From an uncultured Clostridia bacterium (GTDB taxonomy: Bacteria > Bacillota > Clostridia > UMGS1883), in assembly GCA_947630975.1 (NCBI GenBank), contig CANRJP010000012.1:1-42305 (forward strand): a stretch of DNA of 42,305 bases, in the 5' to 3' direction. The notes under the pieces were generated by a model. The model ran no database searches, was not told the DNA's origin, and was given only the letters and a program-made list of their open reading frames with translations. Both the position numbers and the translations under genes were made by a program. Below are positions 514 to 35,242 of the stretch, in pieces. Position 1 is the stretch's first letter; each line of letters begins with the position of its first letter.

Positions 514-2043
514 TCACAGTCCTCGCATAATCTCATTTTTAACGGTGAACGACGGGGCTATGTTGAACTCAATAACGATCTTGTCCTTATAGACTGTTAT
601 CTTCTTTACATATCGCTCGATGATGGCGGCACGGTTTTTCAATGTGCCGTCGGCGAGCATCTTTTTTGCTTTACGAAAAGCCGATCTCAAGCCGTTTATG
701 CTTACGGTATTGTCCGATAACCTGAGCTTTGCCTCGTCAAGGGCCGCTGTAATTGACGCCTTTTCTGTTTCAAGCCCCACAAGTCTCTCGCTCAGGGCTG
801 CGGATCCGGTCTGCTCTACGACCTTTACAATATTCCTTATGCCCTTGTCTATCTCTCCGAGCTGCCTTTTCAAGGCGTCTATCTCGGTATTCAGTGCCGT
901 ATTTTTCTTGGCGGCATAGGCATTGTAGTCTTGGAGCAGCCCCGGCAGTCTCGTCTCATCAAAAATACATTCAGACAACATCCTCAGCACGGCTCCTTCC
1001 AATCTGTCCCTTTGTATTTCGGGATTTTTACACTTTATGGCACCGTTTTTCTTGGTGCATCTGTAGGATATGTAAATCGGGTGAGTGGGATTTGCCCTTC
1101 TTGACGAGCCGGCAAAAGCCGACCCGCATTCACCACACACGATTTTACCGGAGAGGAGGTATTCCTGTTTGGCCGTAAAAGCCGCTGTCCGCCGCTTACG
1201 CTCCTCCATCTTCTTTTGGACAGCTATAAAATCTTCCTTCCCGATTATGGCCGGAAGTCTGCCTTCTACACGGATGATTTCACTGTCATCCTTGGACTTG
1301 TGCCGGTTGAACTTTCCGTTGGCATTCTTTGAAGCCGATTTATTGTAAATAAAAGTCCCCGTGTACTTTTCGTTCATAAGTATTTCATACAGTGAATTCT
1401 TATCGAAAGCCGCTCCGCGCTTGGTCCTATACCCTTTTTGGTTAAGGGCTTCTATGATCTTAGTATAACCCTCGTTCTCGAGGTACATCTTAAATATCGT
1501 CTTGACAGCCTCGGCCTCATACGGATTAATAACGAGCTTCTTCGTCGTGGGGTCAACATCGTAACCTAGACACGGAGTTCCTCCGGTGTGACGGCAGGTG
1601 AGGGCATTTTCCTTAAGCCCCTTCATGACCTCACGGCGGAGATTCTTGGAATAATACTCATTATATCCCTCTATTACGCTCTAGAGCAAAATCGACTCGG
1701 GGCCGTCGTTAAATTTTTCCAGAACTGAAATCAGCTCCACGCCGCTGTTGGTGAGTTCCCGGCGGTATATCGCACTCAATGCTCTGTCCCGTGCAAATCG
1801 GTCGAGCTTATGCACTATCACAGCTTGAAACCGCCCATCCATGGCGTCCTGTATCATGTTCTGAAATTCCGGTCTTTGATCTGTTGTGCCGCTTATGCCT
1901 CTGTCCGCATAGATCTTAACAAGAGTATAACCGTTTCTATCGGCAAACTCTCTTATCGCCCTTACTTGGGCGTCTATGGACTCTTCACGCTGCATATCGC
2001 TGGAAAAACGGGCATAGGCGGCTGCGCGCCGAGATACGGCCAT
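514..2043 (-). pseudogene. Large serine recombinase interrupted by an in-frame amber codon
   Basis: Site-specific integrase of the large serine recombinase family; it would cut and rejoin short attachment sites to integrate or excise the element. The N-terminal resolvase domain shows YARFSSDMQ with catalytic Ser about residue 14 and the DRGISGT and HKLDRFARD motifs. The recombinase domain and a zinc ribbon (CGECGSAF...CTKK...CKNPEI) and coiled coil follow. A TAG at 1681-1683 splits one continuous frame: upstream ends GPESILL, downstream resumes SVIEGYNEYYSKNL, where relatives read LLESV. A GAG to TAG change explains it. The start at 2043 has an AAGGAGG site upstream. Without readthrough only the 120-residue catalytic domain is made. 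TAG is also used as a true stop here (amidase gene), so genome-wide amber recoding is unlikely. Confidence 0.85.
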
Positions 2044-2081
2044 ACTCTTACCTCCTTCCTATTGGAGTTATAAATCTTCTT

Positions 2082-2219
2082 TTATGCCGCTTCTACGTTG
2101 TTTGAACTATCATCTCCTTCTGCTGTCTCCGGGTGGAGTACACTGTGAATTGTCTCGCAAAGCAGGTCGGCAGAAGCTTCTCCACTTCCGAAAATGACAT
2201 CAAGCTCCCTTTGGGTCAT
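2082..2219 (-). CDS. 45-residue protein of unknown function in the mobilizable element
   Basis: The ATG at 2219 has an ideal AAGGAGGTG six bases upstream, so translation is credible although the frame is short. The product (MTQRELDVIFGSGEASADLL...) is acidic, with no membrane segment or cysteine motif, and I do not recognise a family. It lies between the relaxase and recombinase genes on the same strand, apparently in one operon. Confidence 0.6.
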   Translation of the reverse strand: MTQRELDVIFGSGEASADLLCETIHSVLHPETAEGDDSSNNVEAA

Positions 2220-2232
2220 GTTGATCACCTCC

Positions 2233-3153
2233 TTATGATTTTGTATGATTATCTTCGCCGTCTGTATTCACAGATGAGATAGAGTTGTTTCCCATAACTG
2301 TTGATTCCTTTGTGTTACGGGAATTTATCTCGTTTATGAAAAACACTGGCTTAATCGGGGCTTTAGGGGCTATGTTGCCGGCCATCATGCTTGCCCATAC
2401 ATCTTCAAGGAATGGCGGTGGATTGTTGGCATCGGTTCTCTCCGTGAACATTACGGCTCTGTCCACTATTTTCGTAGTTGGTCCATCTGTACCCTCGACC
2501 GTTACTACTTCCTTATAGAACGGCAGCGAATCGGGAATCTTGCCATCCTTCACAAAAACCACCGGATTAATACTGTACCTTGATTTGAATTCAGGTATTT
2601 CTCCTGCGGAGAAGTCAATGGGTTCAAGATCTTCATCATCGACGCAACCGCGAACTAATTCGAAATCTGCATCATCTCCAATATCAATATTTCCTACATC
2701 AATGGATCGCTGGTCACAAAGAAGCTGAAAATAATTTTTTAACTGTTGGAGTTCTCGCCGGCTTTGGCTATACTTGTGGCCGTCTGTTACATTTACCGTA
2801 TTTATGATGAAATGTACATGTACATTGTTTGTGTTGTTATGCACTGCATACAACACTTGAAAGTCATCATAAAACAACGCTAAATGTCCGGCAATGTCCA
2901 AAGCCTCGGACTCCGGGACCTTATCCCTGAAAGAGACGATGAAATGCACATACTGCCGTCCACCGGGCTTGTGATAAATTTTTTTTACGGCTGTCATTCG
3001 CATAAAGGCATTTTGGGCGTCTATGCCAATGCCGCCGATGAGACCCGGGCGAGTTTTCCTTGAATCAGTTATATACTCGATTCCTCTCTTAAGTTGGTTT
3101 ATTCCTCGGGCATCTGTTGAACTTTTTCGGTTATTAAACTTAATAATTGCCAT
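2233..3153 (-). CDS. Relaxase/mobilization nuclease (Mob type)
   Basis: Relaxases nick oriT and lead the transferred strand during mobilization. The core has QYVHFIVSF (about 68-75) and NNVHVHFIINTVN (about 109-121); the HxH pair is the metal-binding signature of the relaxase/mobilization nuclease domain. At 306 residues it is near the short end for the family, and its C-terminal 120 residues look low in conserved structure. It overlaps the upstream ribbon-helix-helix gene by 55 bp, so the two are translated together as relaxosome partners. No coupling protein or type IV secretion gene is visible, so the element could only be mobilized by another element. Confidence 0.8.
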   Translation of the reverse strand: MAIIKFNNRKSSTDARGINQLKRGIEYITDSRKTRPGLIGGIGIDAQNAFMRMTAVKKIYHKPGGRQYVHFIVSFRDKVPESEALDIAGHLALFYDDFQVLYAVHNNTNNVHVHFIINTVNVTDGHKYSQSRRELQQLKNYFQLLCDQRSIDVGNIDIGDDADFELVRGCVDDEDLEPIDFSAGEIPEFKSRYSINPVVFVKDGKIPDSLPFYKEVVTVEGTDGPTTKIVDRAVMFTERTDANNPPPFLEDVWASMMAGNIAPKAPIKPVFFINEINSRNTKESTVMGNNSISSVNTDGEDNHTKS

Positions 3154-3395
3154 ATTTCGTCACACGCCTCCTTTATCATAGCCTTTTCTTCCGATCCAAA
3201 TCTGCCATTTACGAGAGCACAGTCAACTTTGTGGAGGAGGGCAACAAGCTTGTGGCCTTCCTCAATATTGATGAGCTTGGAATTCAAAATGGATAATACT
3301 ATCGCTTCGGTTCGGCTTACTTGCATAAGACCTGCCCGACGTTCGATTTCTCGAAAAACGTCCTCGCTCACTTTAAGGGAGATACTCTTTTTCAT
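3099..3395 (-). CDS. Ribbon-helix-helix relaxosome accessory protein (MobC-like)
   Basis: The 98-residue product begins MKKSISLKVSEDVFREIERRA, a ribbon-helix-helix strand and first helix, followed by a helical C-terminus. Beside a relaxase such proteins usually bind oriT and regulate the mob operon; that role is inferred from position. The ATG at 3395 overlaps the TGA of the upstream primase fragment, and GGAGGTGAG lies just upstream, so I prefer it to the TTG three bases earlier. Confidence 0.7.
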   Translation of the reverse strand: MKKSISLKVSEDVFREIERRAGLMQVSRTEAIVLSILNSKLINIEEGHKLVALLHKVDCALVNGRFGSEEKAMIKEACDEIWQLLSLITEKVQQMPEE

Positions 3396-4200
3396 CAAAT
3401 CTCACCTCCTTCCCGCTCATCAGCTACAGAAGCTTTATCTTCCGACTCGCCATCGGTGTCCATATCCGGGGCAGAGCCTTTTAAGCCTATTCCTTCAAAA
3501 CCTCTCATGGGATTGCTTCCGTTCATCCTGAAACGACCATGACGTACGCCGATTAAAGAGTCAATTTTTTGGGAAAACAAAGCCCGACTTATTGGTGTCA
3601 CGGCATTTTCTCTGCAAAACTTTTTATAGGCTTCATAAAGCGTAACGGTATGTACTCGGCAATTATTGCCTTTTTCACACTGCTCGTCAACAAAAACATC
3701 AATGTTTAGGGACTGGAAAGCGTAATCGTCCAAAATGTTTTCGGAGTCCGGTAGTATAACGAAGGAGAAGTTGTTGTCGATAAGCCCCTTTAGCTCAACC
3801 ATTGCACGAAAAAATATCGCGTCCGCTTCTTCCGTCAAATGCTTCAGAAGATTGCGCTCCATTTCGCTTTTGGGAATTTCTGTCGGAAAATTAAGCACAA
3901 CAAGACGATTGATGAAGGCTCTCGAGTAATCCTCATTCTTTACCGGGGGCAGCATATTGCCTGCATATAATAATCGACACTTATTTTGGAAGAAAAACGG
4001 TGACTTGCCCTTAAATTCCCCCATAATTGTATCGCCGCCGACCAAGAGTTTAAATACTTCGATGTCGCGTATTGGAGTTGCTGAGAGTTCGCCGCAGGTG
4101 TTGAGCAGCTTGTCCTTAAGCAATGAGGAGGTTATACGAACTCCAGCAACGATATATTTCCTCGGGTCGGTGTTCGTTCTGGATATGCTGCTGCCTGAAA
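3395..4200 (-). pseudogene. 3' part of a P4-type primase/SF3 helicase, N-terminus missing
   Basis: The sequence LLNTCGELSATPIRD...FKLLVGGDTI and FQNKCRLLYAGNMLPP...RAFINRLVVLNFP matches the C-terminal half of the D5/P4-family primase-helicase (B' and sensor motifs), followed by a winged-helix-like C-terminal region. Family members are 450-800 residues with a Walker A motif before this point; here no GxxGxGKS precedes it. The frame stays open to 4336, but that stretch runs through a hairpin terminator (4217-4249) and 12-bp repeats and does not resemble the family, so homology ends near 4200. It sits at the head of the mob operon and overlaps the next gene by one base. I infer truncation by deletion or by insertion of the neighbouring prophage. 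Confidence 0.7.
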
Positions 4201-4216
4201 AACGGCGGTAAAAACT

Positions 4217-4320: not shown

Positions 4321-4349
4321 TTGACATACCACCCACTGAGTGGTATAAT
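4321..4349 (+). promoter_or_regulatory. Promoter with palindromic operator in the spacer (O1)
   Basis: TTGACA (4321-4326) and TATAAT (4344-4349) are separated by exactly 17 bp. The spacer holds ATACCAC-N7-GTGGTAT (4326-4332/4340-4346) and an overlapping smaller palindrome CCACT-G-AGTGG (4333-4343). It drives the gene starting at 4394. A repressor bound here would block RNA polymerase. Confidence 0.85.
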
Positions 4350-4393
4350 ATAATCGTAAACAGGAAATGAAAAAAAGAGAGAGGATGTTAAAC

Positions 4394-4753
4394 ATGACTA
4401 CCTATTATTTAACCACAAACCCTGAAATTTTTGGCGAAGACCTGATAATTTGCACAAATGGCAAACAATACCGTATTGTTCCGACATTGTCCAACGGTCG
4501 CGACTGTTACACCGGCGCTGATCTGTACGCCGTTCGTGAATACGTCATTGCCAAAAAGCACGGGGACGACACCGACGCGGCCAACGAGGCGGAGTACAAA
4601 AAATTAACTGACGCCTATGCCAGCAGCGAAGACCTGTTTAACTGGGATGATGTTATGACGGACATTGCCCGCGACTGTCCCGACGAAATCCACGATCTGG
4701 ATTTTGACCCCGCAGAGCTGGAAAATGCCGTTGTGCTGAGGGTTATAGACTGA
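4394..4753 (+). CDS. Acidic protein of unknown function, first gene of O1 operon (119 aa)
   Basis: I do not recognise a family. The product is strongly acidic, especially in its second half (DDTDAANEAEYKK, DLDFDPAELEN), with no membrane segment. ATG 4394 is preferred over the upstream ATGs at 4367 and 4385 because GAGAGG lies nine bases before it; the gene at 6457 has the same leader layout. TGA overlaps the ATG of the zinc-ribbon gene (TGATG), so the two are coupled. An acidic protein beside DNA-binding proteins could be an inhibitor or antirepressor, but nothing in the sequence proves it. Confidence 0.7.
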   Translation: MTTYYLTTNPEIFGEDLIICTNGKQYRIVPTLSNGRDCYTGADLYAVREYVIAKKHGDDTDAANEAEYKKLTDAYASSEDLFNWDDVMTDIARDCPDEIHDLDFDPAELENAVVLRVID

Positions 4754-5322
4754 TGGCGATATACAATAATCGTGTCTGCCGCACCTGTGGGACTGTCTTC
4801 TCCGGCGGTCCTCGGGCGTGGTATTGCCCCGAGTGTCGGTTGGAAAGACAGCGGGCACGCGGCCGGTATCATTCAAAATATGGCTATGAACGTCATATCG
4901 GCGATATCGACATTTGCAAAAACTGTGGGGCGGAATATGTTGTCAACAGCGGGATGCAAATTTACTGCGAAAATTGCCGTGATGAAATGCGCCGTCAAAT
5001 TGATAATCAGCAGGGGACGGAGTATTATTACAAACTGGATAACGACGCCCTGTTACGGCGAAAAAATCGGCGGCGTGAACTGTACCCGCAAACCAAAGAT
5101 AAAATTAACGCAGCCAGGCGGGCACGTCATCCTGAAACGTATTGCGTGAAATGCGGTGCGGTTATTAATCGCGGAAATTATTGTCCTGATTGTCGTCAAG
5201 GAATGATTTCAGTTTACAAGACCACCCATTCGCCCGCAAGGGTGGTGGATGAGTATGGTTGCAGTTACAATTATATATATGCCCTGTTACGAAACCAGAA
5301 GGAGAAAGAAAGTAATGACTGA
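4753..5322 (+). CDS. Triple zinc-ribbon protein (189 aa)
   Basis: Three paired cysteine knuckles are visible: CRTC...CPEC near the N-terminus, CKNC...CENC in the middle, and CVKC...CPDC near residue 145. Arg/Lys-rich segments between them suggest nucleic-acid binding. The C-terminal part (YGCSYNYIYALLRNQK) resembles a short helix-turn-helix-like tail. It is the second gene of the O1 operon and overlaps the next gene by eight bases. Small zinc-ribbon proteins of this layout occur in clostridial mobile elements, but I know of no assigned function. Confidence 0.75.
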   Translation: MAIYNNRVCRTCGTVFSGGPRAWYCPECRLERQRARGRYHSKYGYERHIGDIDICKNCGAEYVVNSGMQIYCENCRDEMRRQIDNQQGTEYYYKLDNDALLRRKNRRRELYPQTKDKINAARRARHPETYCVKCGAVINRGNYCPDCRQGMISVYKTTHSPARVVDEYGCSYNYIYALLRNQKEKESND

Positions 5323-5644
5323 TGGAATTTACATGAACGTGGTGCAAGACGCCATAACACAACCCGACGAGGATTTGTTCGTGAGCGAGTACGGTTATCC
5401 TGATTGGTTTGATGAAATTTCCCCGGACGGAGATGAGGCCGTAAAAATCCTTCGCGGTATACATCGGGCTGTCCATATGTCCATTCGGGATTTAATAAAT
5501 GCGATTGGTATGACGCAGGTGGCATTTGCCAGACATTTTGTAATACCGTTACGCACAGTGGAAAACTGGGCGGGCGGACAGCGAGAGTGCCCGCTGTATT
5601 TAAAACTGCTGATGGCGCAGGATTTGGGGATTTTTAAACGATAA
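5315..5644 (+). CDS. Small HTH protein, third gene of O1 operon (109 aa)
   Basis: The C-terminal half (about residues 55-100) carries an XRE/HigA-like helix-turn-helix, with MTQVAFARHF then PLRTVENWAGGQRECP, a pattern common in short clostridial regulators. The N-terminal half is acidic and unassigned. ATG 5315 has GGAG about eleven bases upstream; further in-frame upstream sequence is the zinc-ribbon gene. Its position at the end of an operon with an operator in its promoter makes it the best candidate to bind O1 and repress its own operon; this is inference. Confidence 0.75.
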   Translation: MTDGIYMNVVQDAITQPDEDLFVSEYGYPDWFDEISPDGDEAVKILRGIHRAVHMSIRDLINAIGMTQVAFARHFVIPLRTVENWAGGQRECPLYLKLLMAQDLGIFKR

Positions 5645-5661
5645 AATAAATGTTGGGATCA

Positions 5662-5693
5662 AAAAAACAGGCGCCCCGGAGCGCCTGTTTTTT
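5662..5693 (+). terminator. Terminator of the O1 operon
   Basis: AAAAAACAGGCGC and GCGCCTGTTTTTT form a perfect 13-bp stem around a 6-nt loop with T-run. The core AAAACAGGCGCC is also used in the terminator at 7878-7903. Confidence 0.9.
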
Positions 5694-5736
5694 GCAACAG
5701 CCCCGTCAGCAGTTGGAAAACTGTCGGGGCTGTTGC
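5694..5736. other. Second large hairpin after the O1 operon
   Basis: GCAACAGCCCCG and CGGGGCTGTTGC form a 12-bp stem; the 19-nt loop can fold a small inner CAGTT/AACTG stem. There is no long T-run, so it may back up the terminator, protect an RNA end, or be a protein site. It lies between convergent genes. Confidence 0.7.
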
Positions 5737-5771
5737 ATTTTGCGAGGTTCATTTATTATGGTATAATTGTA

Positions 5772-6017
5772 TCATACCGACGCGGCCATGTCAATACCCT
5801 TGCCGCCGTTTTTTGTGCGCCTAATCCACCGGATCAGCCGCCAGCGCTGAAGCCGTGAAAGGTTCGGGTTCATCCGGATCAGGGCTTCGGCCTCGCGGGG
5901 ATCCATCGACGGCAAACTGCGCAGAGCCGTTTGAAGATTTTGGACAGCTTCGGCACATGGGATGCCGGCAGCCGCTCCCACCTTGACGAAATTATAAAAA
6001 ACGTTTGTGTCAATCAT
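5772..6017 (-). CDS. Unknown 81-residue protein paired with the repressor-like gene
   Basis: The product (MIDTNVFYNFVKVGAAAGIP...) is helical, with an Arg/Trp-rich basic C-terminus (LQRWRLIRWIRRTKN) that could contact nucleic acid or membrane. No family is recognised. Its ATG lies inside the last codons of the repressor gene, so it is translated from the same autoregulated transcript. A co-regulator or modulator of the repressor is plausible from position alone. Confidence 0.65.
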   Translation of the reverse strand: MIDTNVFYNFVKVGAAAGIPCAEAVQNLQTALRSLPSMDPREAEALIRMNPNLSRLQRWRLIRWIRRTKNGGKGIDMAASV

Positions 6018-6276
6018 CCCCCGGCGCCTCCCCTTTTATCTCCTCGGCGGCCGCTGCCTCCGGTTCAATTATATCCTCGATATGACATTCTAAAACCTTG
6101 GCCACCTTGTACAGTTGATACACGTCCCGGGGAATTCTGATGCGCCGCACCCACTGGTCAATAGTACCGAGGGGGACGCCGCTCGCCTCCGACAGGGCTT
6201 TTTTTGTCATGCCGGTTTCGACCAGCTTCGTGGCCAGCGGTGTCATGTTGTCGGTGATCGTTATTTTCCTTGGCAT
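6010..6276 (-). CDS. XRE-type HTH repressor-like protein (88 aa)
   Basis: The helix-turn-helix spans about residues 20-45 (GMTKKALSEASGVPLGTIDQWV), followed by YQLYKVAKVLECHIEDII, the usual tail of Cro/CI-type domains, and an acidic C-terminus. No dimerisation or peptidase domain follows, so it is a small Cro/CI-like regulator. I start it at ATG 6276 because GGAGG lies eight bases upstream; the ATG at 6291 has none. It is transcribed away from the 6457 gene, and both divergent promoters carry a matching AACATTC-N4-GAGT operator, as expected for an autoregulated lysogeny switch. Confidence 0.8.
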   Translation of the reverse strand: MPRKITITDNMTPLATKLVETGMTKKALSEASGVPLGTIDQWVRRIRIPRDVYQLYKVAKVLECHIEDIIEPEAAAAEEIKGEAPGDD

Positions 6277-6299
6277 TTTGTCATCCTCCATTCATCATT

Positions 6300-6328
6300 A
6301 TTATAACTCATATGAATGTTTTTGTCAA
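6300..6328 (-). promoter_or_regulatory. Promoter and operator of the repressor-like gene
   Basis: On the - strand TTGACA (6328-6323) and TATAAT (6305-6300) are spaced 17 bp. The spacer reads AACATTC-ATAT-GAGTT, whose first half-site and 4-bp gap match the operator of the facing + strand promoter. Confidence 0.85.
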
Positions 6329-6377
6329 TTCGCCAAAATAAACAATCATGTGACTGTATATTTGTGCAACATTACTA

Positions 6378-6406
6378 TTGATAAACATTCGTGTGAGTGT
6401 TATAAT
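6378..6406 (+). promoter_or_regulatory. Promoter with operator O2 for the 6457 gene
   Basis: TTGATA (6378-6383) and TATAAT (6401-6406) are 17 bp apart. AACATTC-GTGT-GAGTGTT (6384-6401) is a palindrome with one mismatch and fills the spacer. It faces the repressor promoter about 80 bp away. Confidence 0.85.
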
Positions 6407-6456
6407 ATAGATGTAAACAGGAAAGGGAAATAAAAAATTTTGAAAGGATGTTTAAA

Positions 6457-6723
6457 ATGACAAAGATTGAACTGATTGAAAGATTGAACACCATCGCCAC
6501 CGCCATCGCCACCGCTCCCGGTTATCACTACGAGGTCAAGGTTAGGGACTGGGAAAACTACGGCAAATCTCGCACCTACTTCAGCATCGCTGAAACCATT
6601 GACAATTCCAAGCATTACGTTGTCCGCGACTACGGTTACTACGATAACAAAGCCGACAAATATGTTGCCGGCAAGAATAATCTGGAAGGCACCCTGTACA
6701 ACTTCAGCGGCGCAAGATTATAA
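6457..6723 (+). CDS. Unknown 88-residue protein under O2 control
   Basis: No family recognised. The product (MTKIELIERLNTIATAIATAP...) has an N-terminal helix followed by a Tyr-rich, probably beta-rich region (HYVVRDYGYYDNKADKYV). ATG 6457 has AAAGG nine bases upstream, the same leader arrangement as the gene at 4394; an ATG at 6448 is inside that leader. If the neighbouring repressor binds O2 this is the first gene expressed when repression lifts, so a Cro-like or excision-related role is possible, but no HTH is evident. Confidence 0.7.
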   Translation: MTKIELIERLNTIATAIATAPGYHYEVKVRDWENYGKSRTYFSIAETIDNSKHYVVRDYGYYDNKADKYVAGKNNLEGTLYNFSGARL

Positions 6724-6730
6724 AATAATC

Positions 6731-6762
6731 GCAGAGTGACGGTTCCCCTTCGGGGAGCCGGT
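6731..6762 (+). repeat. 3' element copy A (GCAGAGTGACGG...GAGCCGGT)
   Basis: GCAGAGTGACGG (6731-6742), a CCCC-TTCG-GGGG tetraloop hairpin and GAGCCGGT (6755-6762) follow directly after the stop of the 6457 gene. A second copy follows the 6844 gene at 7210-7239. Confidence 0.75.
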
Positions 6763-6843
6763 AAGGAATTGTCTGAATTGAAATAAAATATCAAAAAAAT
6801 CAAGGCTGAGCTATCGGCAAGACGGGCAGAAGGGAAGATTGAT

Positions 6844-7218
6844 ATGGTAGGGCGCATGAGTTTGGAAGGCTTCGAGGTTTTTAATTTTAACGATGGTACA
6901 CCGGTGCTCTCAGTCAGGCAAAATAGCGTAACTTTCGGCAAATCGGTGTCAAGAAAACTGGGTAGCCCGGAATATGTAATTTTCCTGTTCGATTATTCGG
7001 CTAAAAAAATGGCTGTCCAGGTGTGCGATAAAAACACTCCTAACGCGGTCAAATTTTCTAAGGAAAACAATTCTGGTGGGAATGTTAGGTTTTTTCACAA
7101 GGGCTTGCTTGCGGAAATCGCATTGATAACGGGGTGGAACCTCAGGGAAAGGTCGTATAGGGTCTATGGCACCTTATTGCGCGGAGAAAACGCCATAGTT
7201 TTTGACTTAGCAGAGTGA
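6844..7218 (+). CDS. Unknown 124-residue phage-associated protein
   Basis: The product has a conserved-looking core: NSVTFGKSVSRKLGSPEYV, FDYSAKKMAVQVCDK and NVRFFHKGLLAEIALITGW. I recall short proteins of this shape in clostridial phages but no assigned function. Alternating hydrophobic strands suggest a small beta domain followed by a helix. GAAGGGAAG lies eight to ten bases before ATG 6844; ATG 6856 is an alternative. A stop closes the frame near 6786, so there is no longer version. The downstream 7210 repeat links it to the preceding gene. Confidence 0.65.
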   Translation: MVGRMSLEGFEVFNFNDGTPVLSVRQNSVTFGKSVSRKLGSPEYVIFLFDYSAKKMAVQVCDKNTPNAVKFSKENNSGGNVRFFHKGLLAEIALITGWNLRERSYRVYGTLLRGENAIVFDLAE

Positions 7219-7239
7219 CGGGGCTGCAGGAGAGCCGGT
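7210..7239 (+). repeat. 3' element copy B (GCAGAGTGACGG...GAGCCGGT)
   Basis: GCAGAGTGACGG (7210-7221) overlaps the stop of the 6844 gene, and GAGCCGGT lies at 7232-7239. The outer blocks match copy A exactly; the middle differs. Confidence 0.75.
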
Positions 7240-7292
7240 CACTATCCCGGCCACACTACGAAAAAATTTTTTAAAAAATTTTCAAAAAACAC

Positions 7293-7321
7293 TTGACATA
7301 CTTAAACAAGTATGTTATAAT
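7293..7321 (+). promoter_or_regulatory. Promoter with operator O3
   Basis: TTGACA (7293-7298) and TATAAT (7316-7321) are 17 bp apart. The spacer region is a perfect palindrome ACATACTT-AAAC-AAGTATGT (7296-7315). GAGAGGAGG follows at 7331-7339 for the 7348 gene. Confidence 0.9.
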
Positions 7322-7347: not shown

Positions 7348-7464
7348 TTGAGTCGGCAAAAGAAAAACGGCAAGAAGCCTGATCCCAACAAAATCTTACT
7401 TCTTACCGCAATCTTTCAGCTTGCAGTTGCCTTGATCGAACTTATCAAGGAACTCACAAGTTGA
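7348..7464 (+). CDS. 38-residue basic-plus-hydrophobic peptide (candidate small membrane toxin)
   Basis: TTG 7348 is eight bases after GAGAGGAGG and directly downstream of a consensus promoter, so expression is credible. The peptide has a Lys-rich N-terminus (SRQKKNGKKPDPNK) and one amphipathic or membrane helix (ILLLTAIFQLAVALIELIKEL). Layout and size resemble small hydrophobic peptides of type I toxin systems and similar orphan peptides of Firmicutes mobile elements; I see no antisense RNA promoter that would prove that. A regulatory leader peptide is the main alternative. Confidence 0.6.
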   Translation: MSRQKKNGKKPDPNKILLLTAIFQLAVALIELIKELTS

Positions 7465-7544
7465 GGGCGGGGGCTTCGGCCCCTTGCCCTGCCACCAATA
7501 TTGTATCACGTTTAATCGATCTTGTCAAGTAGGAGGTGAAAATA

Positions 7545-7643
7545 ATGTTGTCAGATATTTTAAACGTCGTTGAAATCATTCTCGACCTCGCTATCGCGGC
7601 GCTGCTCTTCGCCCTGTGGCGGGAGATGAAATCGAAAAAATGA
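7545..7643 (+). CDS. 32-residue single-pass membrane peptide
   Basis: ATG 7545 follows AGGAGGTGA. The peptide (MLSDILNVVEIILDLAIAALL then FALWREMKSKK, adjoining) is one hydrophobic helix with a basic C-terminal end, like holin-like toxins and small membrane regulators. It sits between the 38-residue peptide and the ribbon-helix-helix gene, 16 bases before the latter, probably in the same operon. A TTCG hairpin at about 7467-7482 lies upstream and could tune its translation. Confidence 0.6.
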   Translation: MLSDILNVVEIILDLAIAALLFALWREMKSKK

Positions 7644-7659
7644 TCACGGAGGAATGGAC

Positions 7660-7866
7660 ATGGCTGAAAAAAGAAAAACCTACACCTCGGCAGCCGTAAA
7701 AAATCGCTATGCCGCCAAAAATTATGATCGCATAAACCTGTTCGTGAAAAAAGGGCAAAAGGACGCCATAAAGCAACGTGCCGAGGCCCTCGGTATGAGC
7801 CTGAACGAATATATAACCGGCCTTGTCCGCTCGGACATGGGAATTTCAAACGATAACGATAATTAA
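7660..7866 (+). CDS. Ribbon-helix-helix DNA-binding protein (68 aa)
   Basis: DRINLFVKKGQKDAIKQRAEALGMSLNEYITGLVRSD (residues about 22-60) is a CopG/Arc-like ribbon-helix-helix: strand, helix, SLNEY turn, helix. The tail is basic at the N-terminus and acidic at the C-terminus. ATG 7660 has GGAGG seven bases upstream; the ATG at 7654 touches the same site and is too close. As the last gene behind operator O3 it most likely represses this operon, as antitoxin or CopG-like proteins do; that is inference. Confidence 0.75.
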   Translation: MAEKRKTYTSAAVKNRYAAKNYDRINLFVKKGQKDAIKQRAEALGMSLNEYITGLVRSDMGISNDNDN

Positions 7867-7913: not shown

Positions 7914-8936
7914 CTATTTCTGCACGGTATAGGCCAGGTTGATCCAGCCGGCGCCGGATTTCAGTTTTCCCCAGCCGTCCTGTTCGTCAACGATGGTGTA
8001 AACCTCGCCGCCGTAAATTTTTGTGCTGATGCCGTACCGGACGCCGGGGCCCTTACGGACATTCAGCACCGCCGCCGTGACACGCACCAGATACCAAACG
8101 GGGATCTCGGTTTCGGCGGGTGTCGGCACCTCGGTTTCGGTGGGCGTCGGGGGCTCGGTGGGCGCCGGTGCCGGATCGCCCAGCAGCTTGCCCCAGGTCA
8201 AGGGGCCGACGCTGCCGTCCACATCCAGACCATTATTTTGCTGGAACGCCTTTACCGCTGCAAGTGTGGCCGGGCCGAAGCTGCCGTCCACGTCCAGCGG
8301 CCCGAAGCCCAGGCCGTTCAATATGGTTTGCAGCCGCCGCACCGCCTCGCCGACATATCCGTAAACCAGAACAGGGGTCGGGTCTTCCTCCGCCGGAGCG
8401 CCGCCGAGTTTGTCGCGGAATTCCGACAGCCACGCGGCGTTTTTGGCCGCCGTCCCGCACCAGTAGTCCGGACAGTGTTTGCCGGTCACATCGAAATGAC
8501 GGATCACCCGCTCGACGGGGACGTTGTATTTTTCCATCAGCTGCCGCGTCAGCTCCAGGGCGTTTTCGATAGTTGCCGCAGAGGGATAAATCGCGCCGTC
8601 CTTGCGGTCGTCGCACAGTTCAATACTGATACTGTTTGTGTTGTTCACAGTCCCGTACAGCCGACCGCCGCCGGTCTGGGCGCAGTCGCCGTACTTGCTG
8701 CCGCCCACCGACCAGGCAACGCGCCCGTCGGGGACGCTGTGGGTCACGCTGTCGCTGTCAACGAAATAATGGGCGGACGCTTTGACGACCGTGTTGTGAA
8801 AATATTTGCCGTTGCCCTCGTCGGTGTCGCCGTCGTTGGCGGTGAAGTGGATCACTATGTATTTGATTTTACTCAGGGCACGGCTGCCGCCGTAGTTGCC
8901 GCTGTTGGCGGTGTTGGTTTTTAATACGTAACTCAT
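7914..8936 (-). CDS. N-acetylmuramoyl-L-alanine amidase endolysin (340 aa)
   Basis: Cuts the amide bond between muramic acid and the stem peptide to lyse the host. An Amidase_2 domain spans about 20-170: IVIHFTAN gives zinc His 30, RHFDVTGKHCPDYW gives the second His and a zinc-binding Cys. A PG_binding_1 domain follows (about 190-250; LQTILNGLGF...VDGSVGPLTWGKLL), then a Pro/Thr/Glu linker and a C-terminal bacterial SH3 domain (VLNVRKGPG...GWGKL...GWI). No signal peptide, so release depends on the holin. Its ATG overlaps the holin stop. It ends with TAG, showing amber is a normal stop in this phage. Confidence 0.93.
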   Translation of the reverse strand: MSYVLKTNTANSGNYGGSRALSKIKYIVIHFTANDGDTDEGNGKYFHNTVVKASAHYFVDSDSVTHSVPDGRVAWSVGGSKYGDCAQTGGGRLYGTVNNTNSISIELCDDRKDGAIYPSAATIENALELTRQLMEKYNVPVERVIRHFDVTGKHCPDYWCGTAAKNAAWLSEFRDKLGGAPAEEDPTPVLVYGYVGEAVRRLQTILNGLGFGPLDVDGSFGPATLAAVKAFQQNNGLDVDGSVGPLTWGKLLGDPAPAPTEPPTPTETEVPTPAETEIPVWYLVRVTAAVLNVRKGPGVRYGISTKIYGGEVYTIVDEQDGWGKLKSGAGWINLAYTVQK

Positions 8937-34413: not shown

Positions 34414-34538
34414 ATCCGAGGCCTGCCTTTGCCGATTGAATAATTTGTGTTTGCGGTGTTTTTGAATGCTAAATGGATGTCAAAATTGAATTATTTTGCG
34501 GTATTTTTTTGATTTTTTAAGGCCATTTCGGGCCGGAC

Positions 34539-34602
34539 AATATAAATTAAGGTTTAAAGTGTACGGCGTAACGAAATGCCCGAAAAATTTTCACTTTAAT
34601 CC
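34539..34602 (-). promoter_or_regulatory. Candidate activator-dependent late promoter
   Basis: On the - strand a TATATT -10 (34544-34539) has no -35 match. Six bases upstream lies one arm of GGTTTAAAGTG-N30-CACTTTAATCC (34551-34561/34592-34602, one mismatch). An arm at -35 with a second arm further upstream is the usual layout for a late activator site. Transcription would start near 34531, about 118 nt before the first late gene. Confidence 0.45.
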
Positions 34603-34855
34603 GGGTACGGATCGGGCCTTCCCCGAGCCGCGACGTAATATCCGGCAGGAAGTACCTACGCCATATCGCCCCGAGGGGGGCGGCAAACTGAAAGGGCCGC
34701 ATCACAGCGACGTGACACGGCCCCATCGGCGGAAAGCCTTGGCGGTGAAGCGGGAACGGTCCGGCCCGACCGTTCCACGATATTATTCTAACACGCCAAA
34801 AGTCCAGCGAAGTCCGAACTTCACCGCCGCACCCATCCGTGCCCCCAACGCATCA

Positions 34856-34962
34856 CGCTGCACCCATGCAGCGCACAACCGCTCACGCTGCACCCATGCA
34901 GCGCACAACCGCTCACGCTGCATAGACGCAGCACACAACCGCTCGCTGCACCGATGCAGCAC
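34856..34962. repeat. Four tandem 28-30 bp palindromic repeats
   Basis: Units begin at 34856, 34886, 34916 and 34944. The first two are identical 30-mers; each unit holds GCTGCA-N4-TGCAGC or a close variant, followed by GC(G/A)CACAACCGCT. Spacing of three helical turns suits cooperative protein binding, as in iterons or cosB R-sites. Confidence 0.9.
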
Positions 34963-35242
34963 GGACAGCGGTACTGTCCATTACTGTCCGCTGTTGTCAA
35001 TAGCTGTCCCGCCCTGTCCTGTTGTGGGCGATAACGTATGCCGCCCGACGTCCGCCGCTGTGTGAGAACAAAAACCCCGGCCATATTCCCGGCCCGATAT
35101 ATTCCGCTCGCCGAGGGGGTGTGAAAATAGTGGGCCTGTTTTTTACGCCCGGCATGGGGCATATGTTTTTTAATGCCGTTTCCCGGCACTGTAATTTCCC
35201 AGCGTTTCGCCGCTGGACGGCAGCATGATTTTGACAAAAAAT

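Follow-up and report, generated by a model that had tools for sequence, protein, structure and literature searches.

Background

Small phage operons which are repressed by one of their own products are a known kind of genetic unit. In this work, we describe a putative prophage locus in which three operons, probably of this kind and here called cassettes 1, 2 and 3, follow each other within a stretch of 42,305 nucleotides from an uncultured Clostridia bacterium (GenBank assembly GCA_947630975.1, contig CANRJP010000012.1). The whole stretch, referred to as the window, corresponds to contig C12 in a genome of 2.9 Mb and 191 contigs, labelled G000, whose sampled relatives fall into a single class together with the Clostridia-like hits. 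As far as our searches show, the operator families involved and their combination at one locus are apparently undescribed, and a literature search with the operator sequences returned no relevant paper among the matches listed.

Cassette 1 is comparable to the acr-aca operons, short phage operons with variable small cargo genes first, a helix-turn-helix (HTH) gene last and an inverted repeat in the core promoter; repression by Aca proteins through repeats located inside core promoters has been demonstrated (PMC9410906). It differs from them in that no known acr gene was recognized in Pfam, PHROG, NCBIfam or PADLOC searches, and its HTH protein, HTH-5315, is nearest to HigA-2 and NadS among the profiles searched. 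Cassette 2 resembles the divergent operator regions of lambdoid phages, featuring a pair of divergent promoters, an operator present in three copies and a single HTH protein; in contrast to those regions, it is predicted to control small orphan genes near an endolysin gene, its HTH protein, 6010, carries no oligomerisation or cleavage domain, and no Cro partner was identified.

Cassette 3 recalls two different groups of systems. In type I toxin-antitoxin (TA) modules of Gram-positive prophages, such as yonT/SR6/yoyJ of SPbeta (PMC5848175) and the C. difficile modules (PMC6563280), a tiny membrane peptide comes first, a second small peptide comes next, and a promoter on the opposite strand, placed between the two, reads back over the first; cassette 3 has the same order, with putative membrane peptides. 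Autorepressors of the Arc/CopG/NikA type are likewise small ribbon-helix-helix (RHH) proteins with a palindromic operator in their own promoter. Unlike the type I modules, cassette 3 has an RHH operator in its sense promoter and an RHH gene in last position, and its antisense RNA and toxicity are putative; unlike the operators of the RHH autorepressors, its own has the core ACT-N6-AGT and is linked to putative membrane mini-peptides.

Results

Promoters, operators and regulators

A preliminary description of the region had proposed three near-consensus promoters with palindromes in their 17-bp spacers, each accompanied by the gene for a small DNA-binding protein. Both elements were found in place. 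When scored by matches to the sigma-A hexamers, the promoters P1 (4321-4349, TTGACA-17-TATAAT), P2 (6378-6406, TTGATA-17-TATAAT) and P3 (7293-7321, TTGACA-17-TATAAT), all on the plus strand, reach 12, 11 and 12 matches out of 12, respectively, and each spacer contains a palindrome. The DNA-binding genes are a HigA/NadS-like HTH (5315-5644, plus strand), an XRE/HTH_26 protein (6010-6291, minus strand) and an Arc/NikA-like RHH protein (7654-7866, plus strand).

The covariation check suggested at that time, whether each palindrome changes together with the adjacent regulator, gave a positive answer: in other genomes each palindrome co-varies with its neighbouring regulator family. In the genus, for which 8 genomes were compared, every operator was found three times, always with its own regulator family. 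The organization of the locus into self-repressing cassettes, in which operator and regulator co-vary, is well supported by these sequence comparisons.

The promoters as such are ordinary. Scanning of 14 kb revealed 38 promoter-like sites (at least 9 matches out of 12), against 15.2 +/- 4.2 in shuffled sequences, with P1, P2 and P3 among the four best-scoring ones; strong promoters are, in fact, common in the genus, where sites composed of an A-tract and a TTGACA-17-TATAAT-like pattern (up to 3 mismatches) number 31-75 per genome, and the idea that near-consensus promoters are by themselves a special feature was consequently rejected. An A-tract upstream of the -35 hexamer is common to P1, P3 and the promoters of three further loci (L010, L011 and L012), and is general in the genus; a leader, ATATA-N-AT/CG-TAAACAGGAAA, is common to P1 and P2. 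Among the promoters with this common chassis (P1-P3 and L010-L012) only the spacer differs. The statement that the cassettes share an architecture but not a sequence holds for the palindromes, which differ in core and geometry, and needs correction for the promoter chassis, which is itself shared. Of 114 distinct genus promoters among those listed, 2.6% score at least 7 on the same palindrome measure.

Host genomes (G005:C210, G003:C33, G002:C33 and G003:C19) also carry LexA-like GAACAAATGTTC boxes in the corresponding promoter spacer, a chromosomal analogue of the design.

Cassette 1

Operator O1 (4326-4346) had been described as ATACCAC-N7-GTGGTAT. The arms are present, but the seven central bases (c-CA-c-TG-a) are themselves symmetric and belong to the palindrome, so that O1 is a 21-bp element, ATACCAC-c-CA-c-TG-a-GTGGTAT, with 9 of 10 possible pairs (spacer-shuffle p 0.0016) and the family core CAC-N-CA-N-TG-N-GTG.

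Three genes on the plus strand follow, up to a hairpin at 5662-5693 (inverted repeat I6), which has a T-run on both strands and is probably a bidirectional terminator. The first, C4394 (4394-4753), encodes an acidic protein of 119 aa (pI 4.2, net charge -16); the second (4753-5322) a 189-aa zinc-ribbon protein (Pfam Zn_ribbon_6, 3.6e-7), homologs of which lie under O1-type promoters in L021, L022 and L025; the last (5315-5644) HTH-5315, of 109 aa (phrog_25567, 8e-19), the proposed Aca-like autorepressor of O1. The short operon with the HTH gene in last position is repeated in loci L133-L138 and L018-L066. The nearest solved structure to the HTH-5315 profile is HigA-2 (PDB, 3.8e-4), the NadS match being weak and below the cut-off, and a stretch of the recognition helix, IPxRT-xxxW, is nearly invariant among its relatives. 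On the minus strand, just beyond the genes, an 11/12 promoter (5794-5766), a strong hairpin (5737-5693) and a T-run hairpin (5693-5662) follow each other, and a small RNA roughly 100 nt long may be made there (5794-5655).

Association of O1 with HTH-5315 relatives was evaluated in three collections. In the genus, all 3 sites matching the O1 pattern have an HTH-5315 relative on the 3' side. A scan of viral contigs for ATACCAC-N7-GTGGTATAAT selected 56 contigs, whose sites were split by presence of a -35 hexamer (at least 4 of 6 matches) and inspected for an HTH gene within 2 kb 3': a relative is present behind 16 of the 31 that have a -35 hexamer and behind none of the 26 that lack one (Fisher p 9e-6), against a chance expectation of 0.03 per 2 kb. 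Dereplication reduced these figures to 12 of 24 and 0 of 6 (p 0.057). The central seven bases of the O1 sites are symmetric only where an HTH-5315 relative is present (p 5e-5). Finally, the full O1 promoter was found at 14 sites in 84,980 species genomes, with an HTH gene in 7 of the 12 having enough flanking sequence; all named matches are Clostridia.

The association is also seen starting from the protein. A peptide scan for close viral relatives of HTH-5315 found none, the known ones having come via the operator and a phage collection; relatives found by protein alone keep the O1 core within changed flanks (TACCACGCAATGCGTGGTA; AGCACGCAATGCGTGCT, from Streptococcus phage PH15; TACACGCAATGCGTGTA; ATCACGCAAAGCGTGAT), and the inverted repeat in the core promoter is conserved alongside the HTH-5315 family. 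In PH15 and in Javan273, units of the cassette 1 type also adjoin the endolysin gene.

The cargo between the O1-type promoter and the HTH gene varies from phage to phage, the first protein being mostly acidic (pI below 5 in 12 of 17 cases). C4394 itself has no match in Pfam, PHROG, NCBIfam or PADLOC. Homologs were detected in G003:C18 (63%), in G000:C4 (65%), another prophage-like locus in the genome of the window and likewise next to an endolysin gene, and in G256:C86 (41-42%), where the homolog sits between two ArdC-N (antirestriction) genes. Based on these homologs, the last in particular, we guess that C4394 is a candidate anti-defence, possibly anti-restriction, protein. AlphaFold modelling (4 sequences) produced a mean pLDDT of 60, and comparison of the model with known structures gave no hit at E below 0.8; on this basis, a DNA-mimic fold is neither favored nor disfavored.

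Cassette 2

The second palindrome had been presented as a single-site operator in P2. It is present, as O2c (6385-6400, ACATTCGTGTGAGTGT), but taken alone it has one mismatch and a spacer-shuffle p of 0.2, and it turned out to be one of three operators in a divergent switch. O2b (6342-6357, ACAATCATGTGACTGT) lies between two promoters, and O2a (6304-6319, ACATTCATATGAGTTA in minus-strand reading) inside the second of these, the HTH gene's own promoter (6328-6300, minus strand, TTGACA-17-TATAAT, 12/12), which the preliminary description had missed together with its operator copy. What makes O2 convincing is that the only three matches to its consensus in the window (at most 4 mismatches out of 16), at 6304, 6342 and 6385, share one intergenic region, one of them inside the HTH promoter.

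The XRE-type HTH protein encoded at 6010-6291 (minus strand; Pfam HTH_26, 2.8e-6) is the proposed regulator of O2a-O2c. Its downstream partner (5772-6017, minus strand) encodes a basic protein of 81 aa with no family match. Across the operators, the HTH gene faces two orphan cargo genes on the plus strand, downstream of P2, 6457-6723 (88 aa; no phage match, no family) and 6844-7218 (124 aa; no family). Relatives of C4394 and of the 6457 protein were searched in named phages, and none was found; in family-library searches, zinc ribbons were the only known family among the cargo proteins of the cassettes.

One HTH gene, divergent promoters and three operator copies recur together in G003:C5, L003 and L004, with relatives of 6010 (82% identity in G003, 59% in L004, 55% in L003) that face other small orphan genes across the three-operator region. 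The operator consensus, as read by eye, changes from ACAnTC-RTRT-GAnTGT in the window to CCACCC-RTGT-GGGTGG in L003 and CCATRC-ACAC-GYATGG in L004. In the genus, all 3 sites of the O2 type, of which G003:C5 has two, are on contigs that also encode a member of the 6010 family. G003 features, in addition, a second operon with the same promoter and two of the O2 operators, which suggests that protein 6010 can run a small regulon. At L189 4820-5010 (G003:C5), this second O2-type operon is immediately followed by a further promoter, TTGACAATCCGCCCTCTGGGTGGTAAAAT, with a different palindrome, the two promoters being stacked and their operators unlike.

Cassette 3

Operator O3 (7296-7315, ACATACTT-AAAC-AAGTATGT) is a perfect palindrome of 8 pairs (spacer-shuffle p 0.009) with the family core ACT-N6-AGT. 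All 3 O3 sites in the genus are found beside an RHH relative, and the core is present in 13 of the 102 promoters that lie no more than 500 bp from an RHH gene, compared to 0 of 83 located farther away (p 3e-4). Two viral matches were found, one of which, L070, has an RHH gene downstream. In G007 (L103, G007:C5:33533) the operator is exactly inverted with respect to the window, with near-identical flanks and unchanged arms, as if the palindrome had been flipped in place, a finding expected if only operator symmetry matters. Interpretation of the AAAC to GTTT loop change between G000 and G007 as four substitutions was rejected in favor of a single exact inversion of the operator.

The first gene (7348-7464, plus strand, TTG start) encodes a K-rich peptide of 38 aa with a putative single transmembrane segment (MSRQKKNGKKPDPNKILLLTAIFQLAVALIELIKELTS), a candidate type I-like toxin; a similar peptide stands first in L010, L011, L012 and L005. 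Directly after it, a hairpin (7465-7489, plus strand, GGGCGGGGGCTTCGGCCCCTTGCCC) may act as an attenuator or form a 3' end; stems after the first open reading frame (ORF) also occur in L005, L007, L010, L011, L012 and L070. A second putative transmembrane peptide, of 32 aa (MLSDILNVVEIILDLAIAALLFALWREMKSKK), is encoded at 7545-7643 (plus strand). The long hydrophobic stretches of both peptides were judged by reading, and neither ORF matches Pfam or NCBIfam. The last gene (7654-7866, plus strand) encodes the Arc/NikA-like RHH protein (phrog_13890, 1.7e-15; NikA-like, 1e-4), the proposed autorepressor acting on O3.

Between the two peptide genes, an antisense promoter (7528-7500, minus strand, TTGACA-17-TACAAT, 11/12) reads over the 38-aa peptide. 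Antisense promoters are found at the same place in L010 and L011/L012, which encode other peptides and have an HTH gene replacing the RHH gene, and are absent from L005 and L006. With a background of 0.19 such promoters per strand-kb, their presence at three in four loci is unlikely to be due to chance, although these loci had been noticed before counting.

Discussion

We consider it likely that the locus comprises three independently controlled, self-repressed accessory (moron) operons between the prophage attachment site and the endolysin gene. Each would start from a strong sigma-A promoter in which the spacer between -35 and -10 serves as operator for the cassette's own small DNA-binding protein. 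As the operators overlap the polymerase contact sites at -35 and -10, repressor binding should exclude RNA polymerase and, each repressor being made by its own cassette, expression would be self-limiting, falling to a low, self-set level as the repressor builds up. In a newly entered cell without repressor, the three cassettes would fire together and then shut down independently.

In cassette 1, HTH-5315 would bind CAC-N-CA-N-TG-N-GTG in P1, within an Aca-like order where a variable, mostly acidic cargo comes first and the HTH gene last. In cassette 2, protein 6010 would bind O2a-O2c and control both its own promoter and the divergent P2. In cassette 3, the RHH protein would bind O3 and limit the two membrane mini-peptides, the first of which may additionally be restrained, type I TA style, by the antisense promoter crossing it. 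That the cassettes are orthogonal and self-repressing, as previously proposed, is a natural inference, since the regulators are of three unrelated types and the operators differ in core and geometry.

Some observations weigh against this interpretation. For five of the 12 testable O1 promoters on genome contigs, no HTH-5315 relative was detected in the vicinity; one of these full promoters stands directly before a serine recombinase gene and another upstream of a ParA gene (L210, L219). The O1 arms recur in the same genome, at G000:C1:37501, with another HTH-5315 relative, and O1 may thus not be insulated from that cassette. L071, the other viral match to O3, has no RHH gene in the 2.6 kb examined, and many RHH relatives have no obvious palindrome in the promoter spacer. 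The 114-promoter background covers only the promoters among the matches listed. For the cargo, the link of C4394 to ArdC is a single weak homolog (E 1.7e-5).

Alternatively, cassette 2 might not be accessory: HTH 6010 and its three operators could form the lysogeny switch of the prophage, an immunity region of the CI/Cro type. We regard this as a possible, though not a probable, explanation of cassette 2: the arrangement resembles lambdoid operator regions, units of the XRE-6010 type adjoin the integrase gene in L003 and L004, and the same operators control, in G003:C5, a second operon, hence a regulon. The divergent operon, on the other hand, encodes small orphan proteins, not replication genes, protein 6010 has only about 90 aa and no cleavage domain, and, as the contig stops short of the other end of the prophage, the true immunity region may lie outside the window.

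It is rather improbable that cassettes 1 and 3 are type II TA operons, with the HTH or RHH protein as autorepressing antitoxin and the preceding small protein as toxin. Antitoxins of both kinds do autorepress, higBA has the toxin-first order, the solved structure most similar to HTH-5315 is that of HigA-2, with a weak similarity to NadS as well, and other genes are fused to some relatives or lie next to them, as does the gene for a 236-aa protein in L009. Family-library searches, however, returned no toxin match for C4394, the zinc-ribbon protein, the mini-peptides or the cassette 2 proteins, and the protein preceding the HTH gene, variable among phages and mostly acidic, is unlike a fixed toxin.

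That the palindromes are a mere by-product of strong promoters, arising by themselves because ACA in the -35 hexamer is complementary to TGT/TAT at the extended -10, is very improbable and largely refuted: random 17-bp spacers between consensus hexamers do score at least 7 in about 3% of cases, and O2c alone lacks significance, but operators and regulators co-occur in the genus, in viral contigs and in species genomes, cores are conserved within variable flanks, and three O2 copies share a single intergenic region.

Returning to the self-repressed accessory operons, nothing indicates that the modules confer a stacked immunity, as had been suggested; an accessory role is the better-supported guess, with cassette 1 as an acr-aca-like anti-defence operon and cassette 3 as a membrane-peptide module with an antisense promoter. 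A wider proposal, which we put forward tentatively, combines several statements: that a portable chassis of A-tract, hexamers and leader, its spacer fitted with varied operators matched to repressors of different fold, allows several insulated cassettes per prophage; that HTH-5315 and its operator mark anti-defence operons of Clostridia and Streptococcus phages which form a family not described so far; and that the membrane-peptide module of cassette 3 is kept in check both by an RHH repressor and by an antisense RNA.

Phages of Clostridia and Streptococcus have, to our knowledge, yielded few anti-defence genes so far. If HTH-5315 is Aca-like, the 21-bp operator could serve as a searchable tag for small-cargo operons in these phages, and the cargo proteins of HTH-5315 operons would be ready anti-defence candidates. 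The three operator families, with fixed cores and variable flanks, may offer matched natural promoter-repressor pairs for studying how neighboring phage modules avoid cross-talk, and the mini-peptide cassette under its RHH protein would represent a toxin-like module controlled at two levels.

Genomic context

The region between attachment site and endolysin is the usual spot for accessory genes, and the three cassettes occupy this stretch. Upstream, positions 514-4200 appear to contain genes of a host mobile element: a broken serine recombinase, a relaxase-like protein, a small RHH protein and a fragment of a DUF5906 primase. The recombinase (514-2043, minus strand) is split over two frames (514-1626 and 1681-2043) and apparently broken. 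The C-terminus of a plus-strand ORF at 3957-4211, PATIYFLGSVFVLDMLLPEKRR, matches NPATIYFVGSVFVLAMPLPEKR, with which the serine integrases encoded in L003 and L004 end, which makes it likely that the attachment junction lies at about 4140-4210; the prophage was probably inserted in the DUF5906 primase gene of the mobile element. On the other side, the cassettes are followed by the endolysin gene (7914-8936) and then by tail genes.

Further downstream, at about 34820-35000, short repeats lie in a stretch with a high frequency of GCTCATAACCGCTCG-like sequence, and show up as repeated motifs (HAAHNRSRC) in the translated ORF at 34496-35065 (plus strand).

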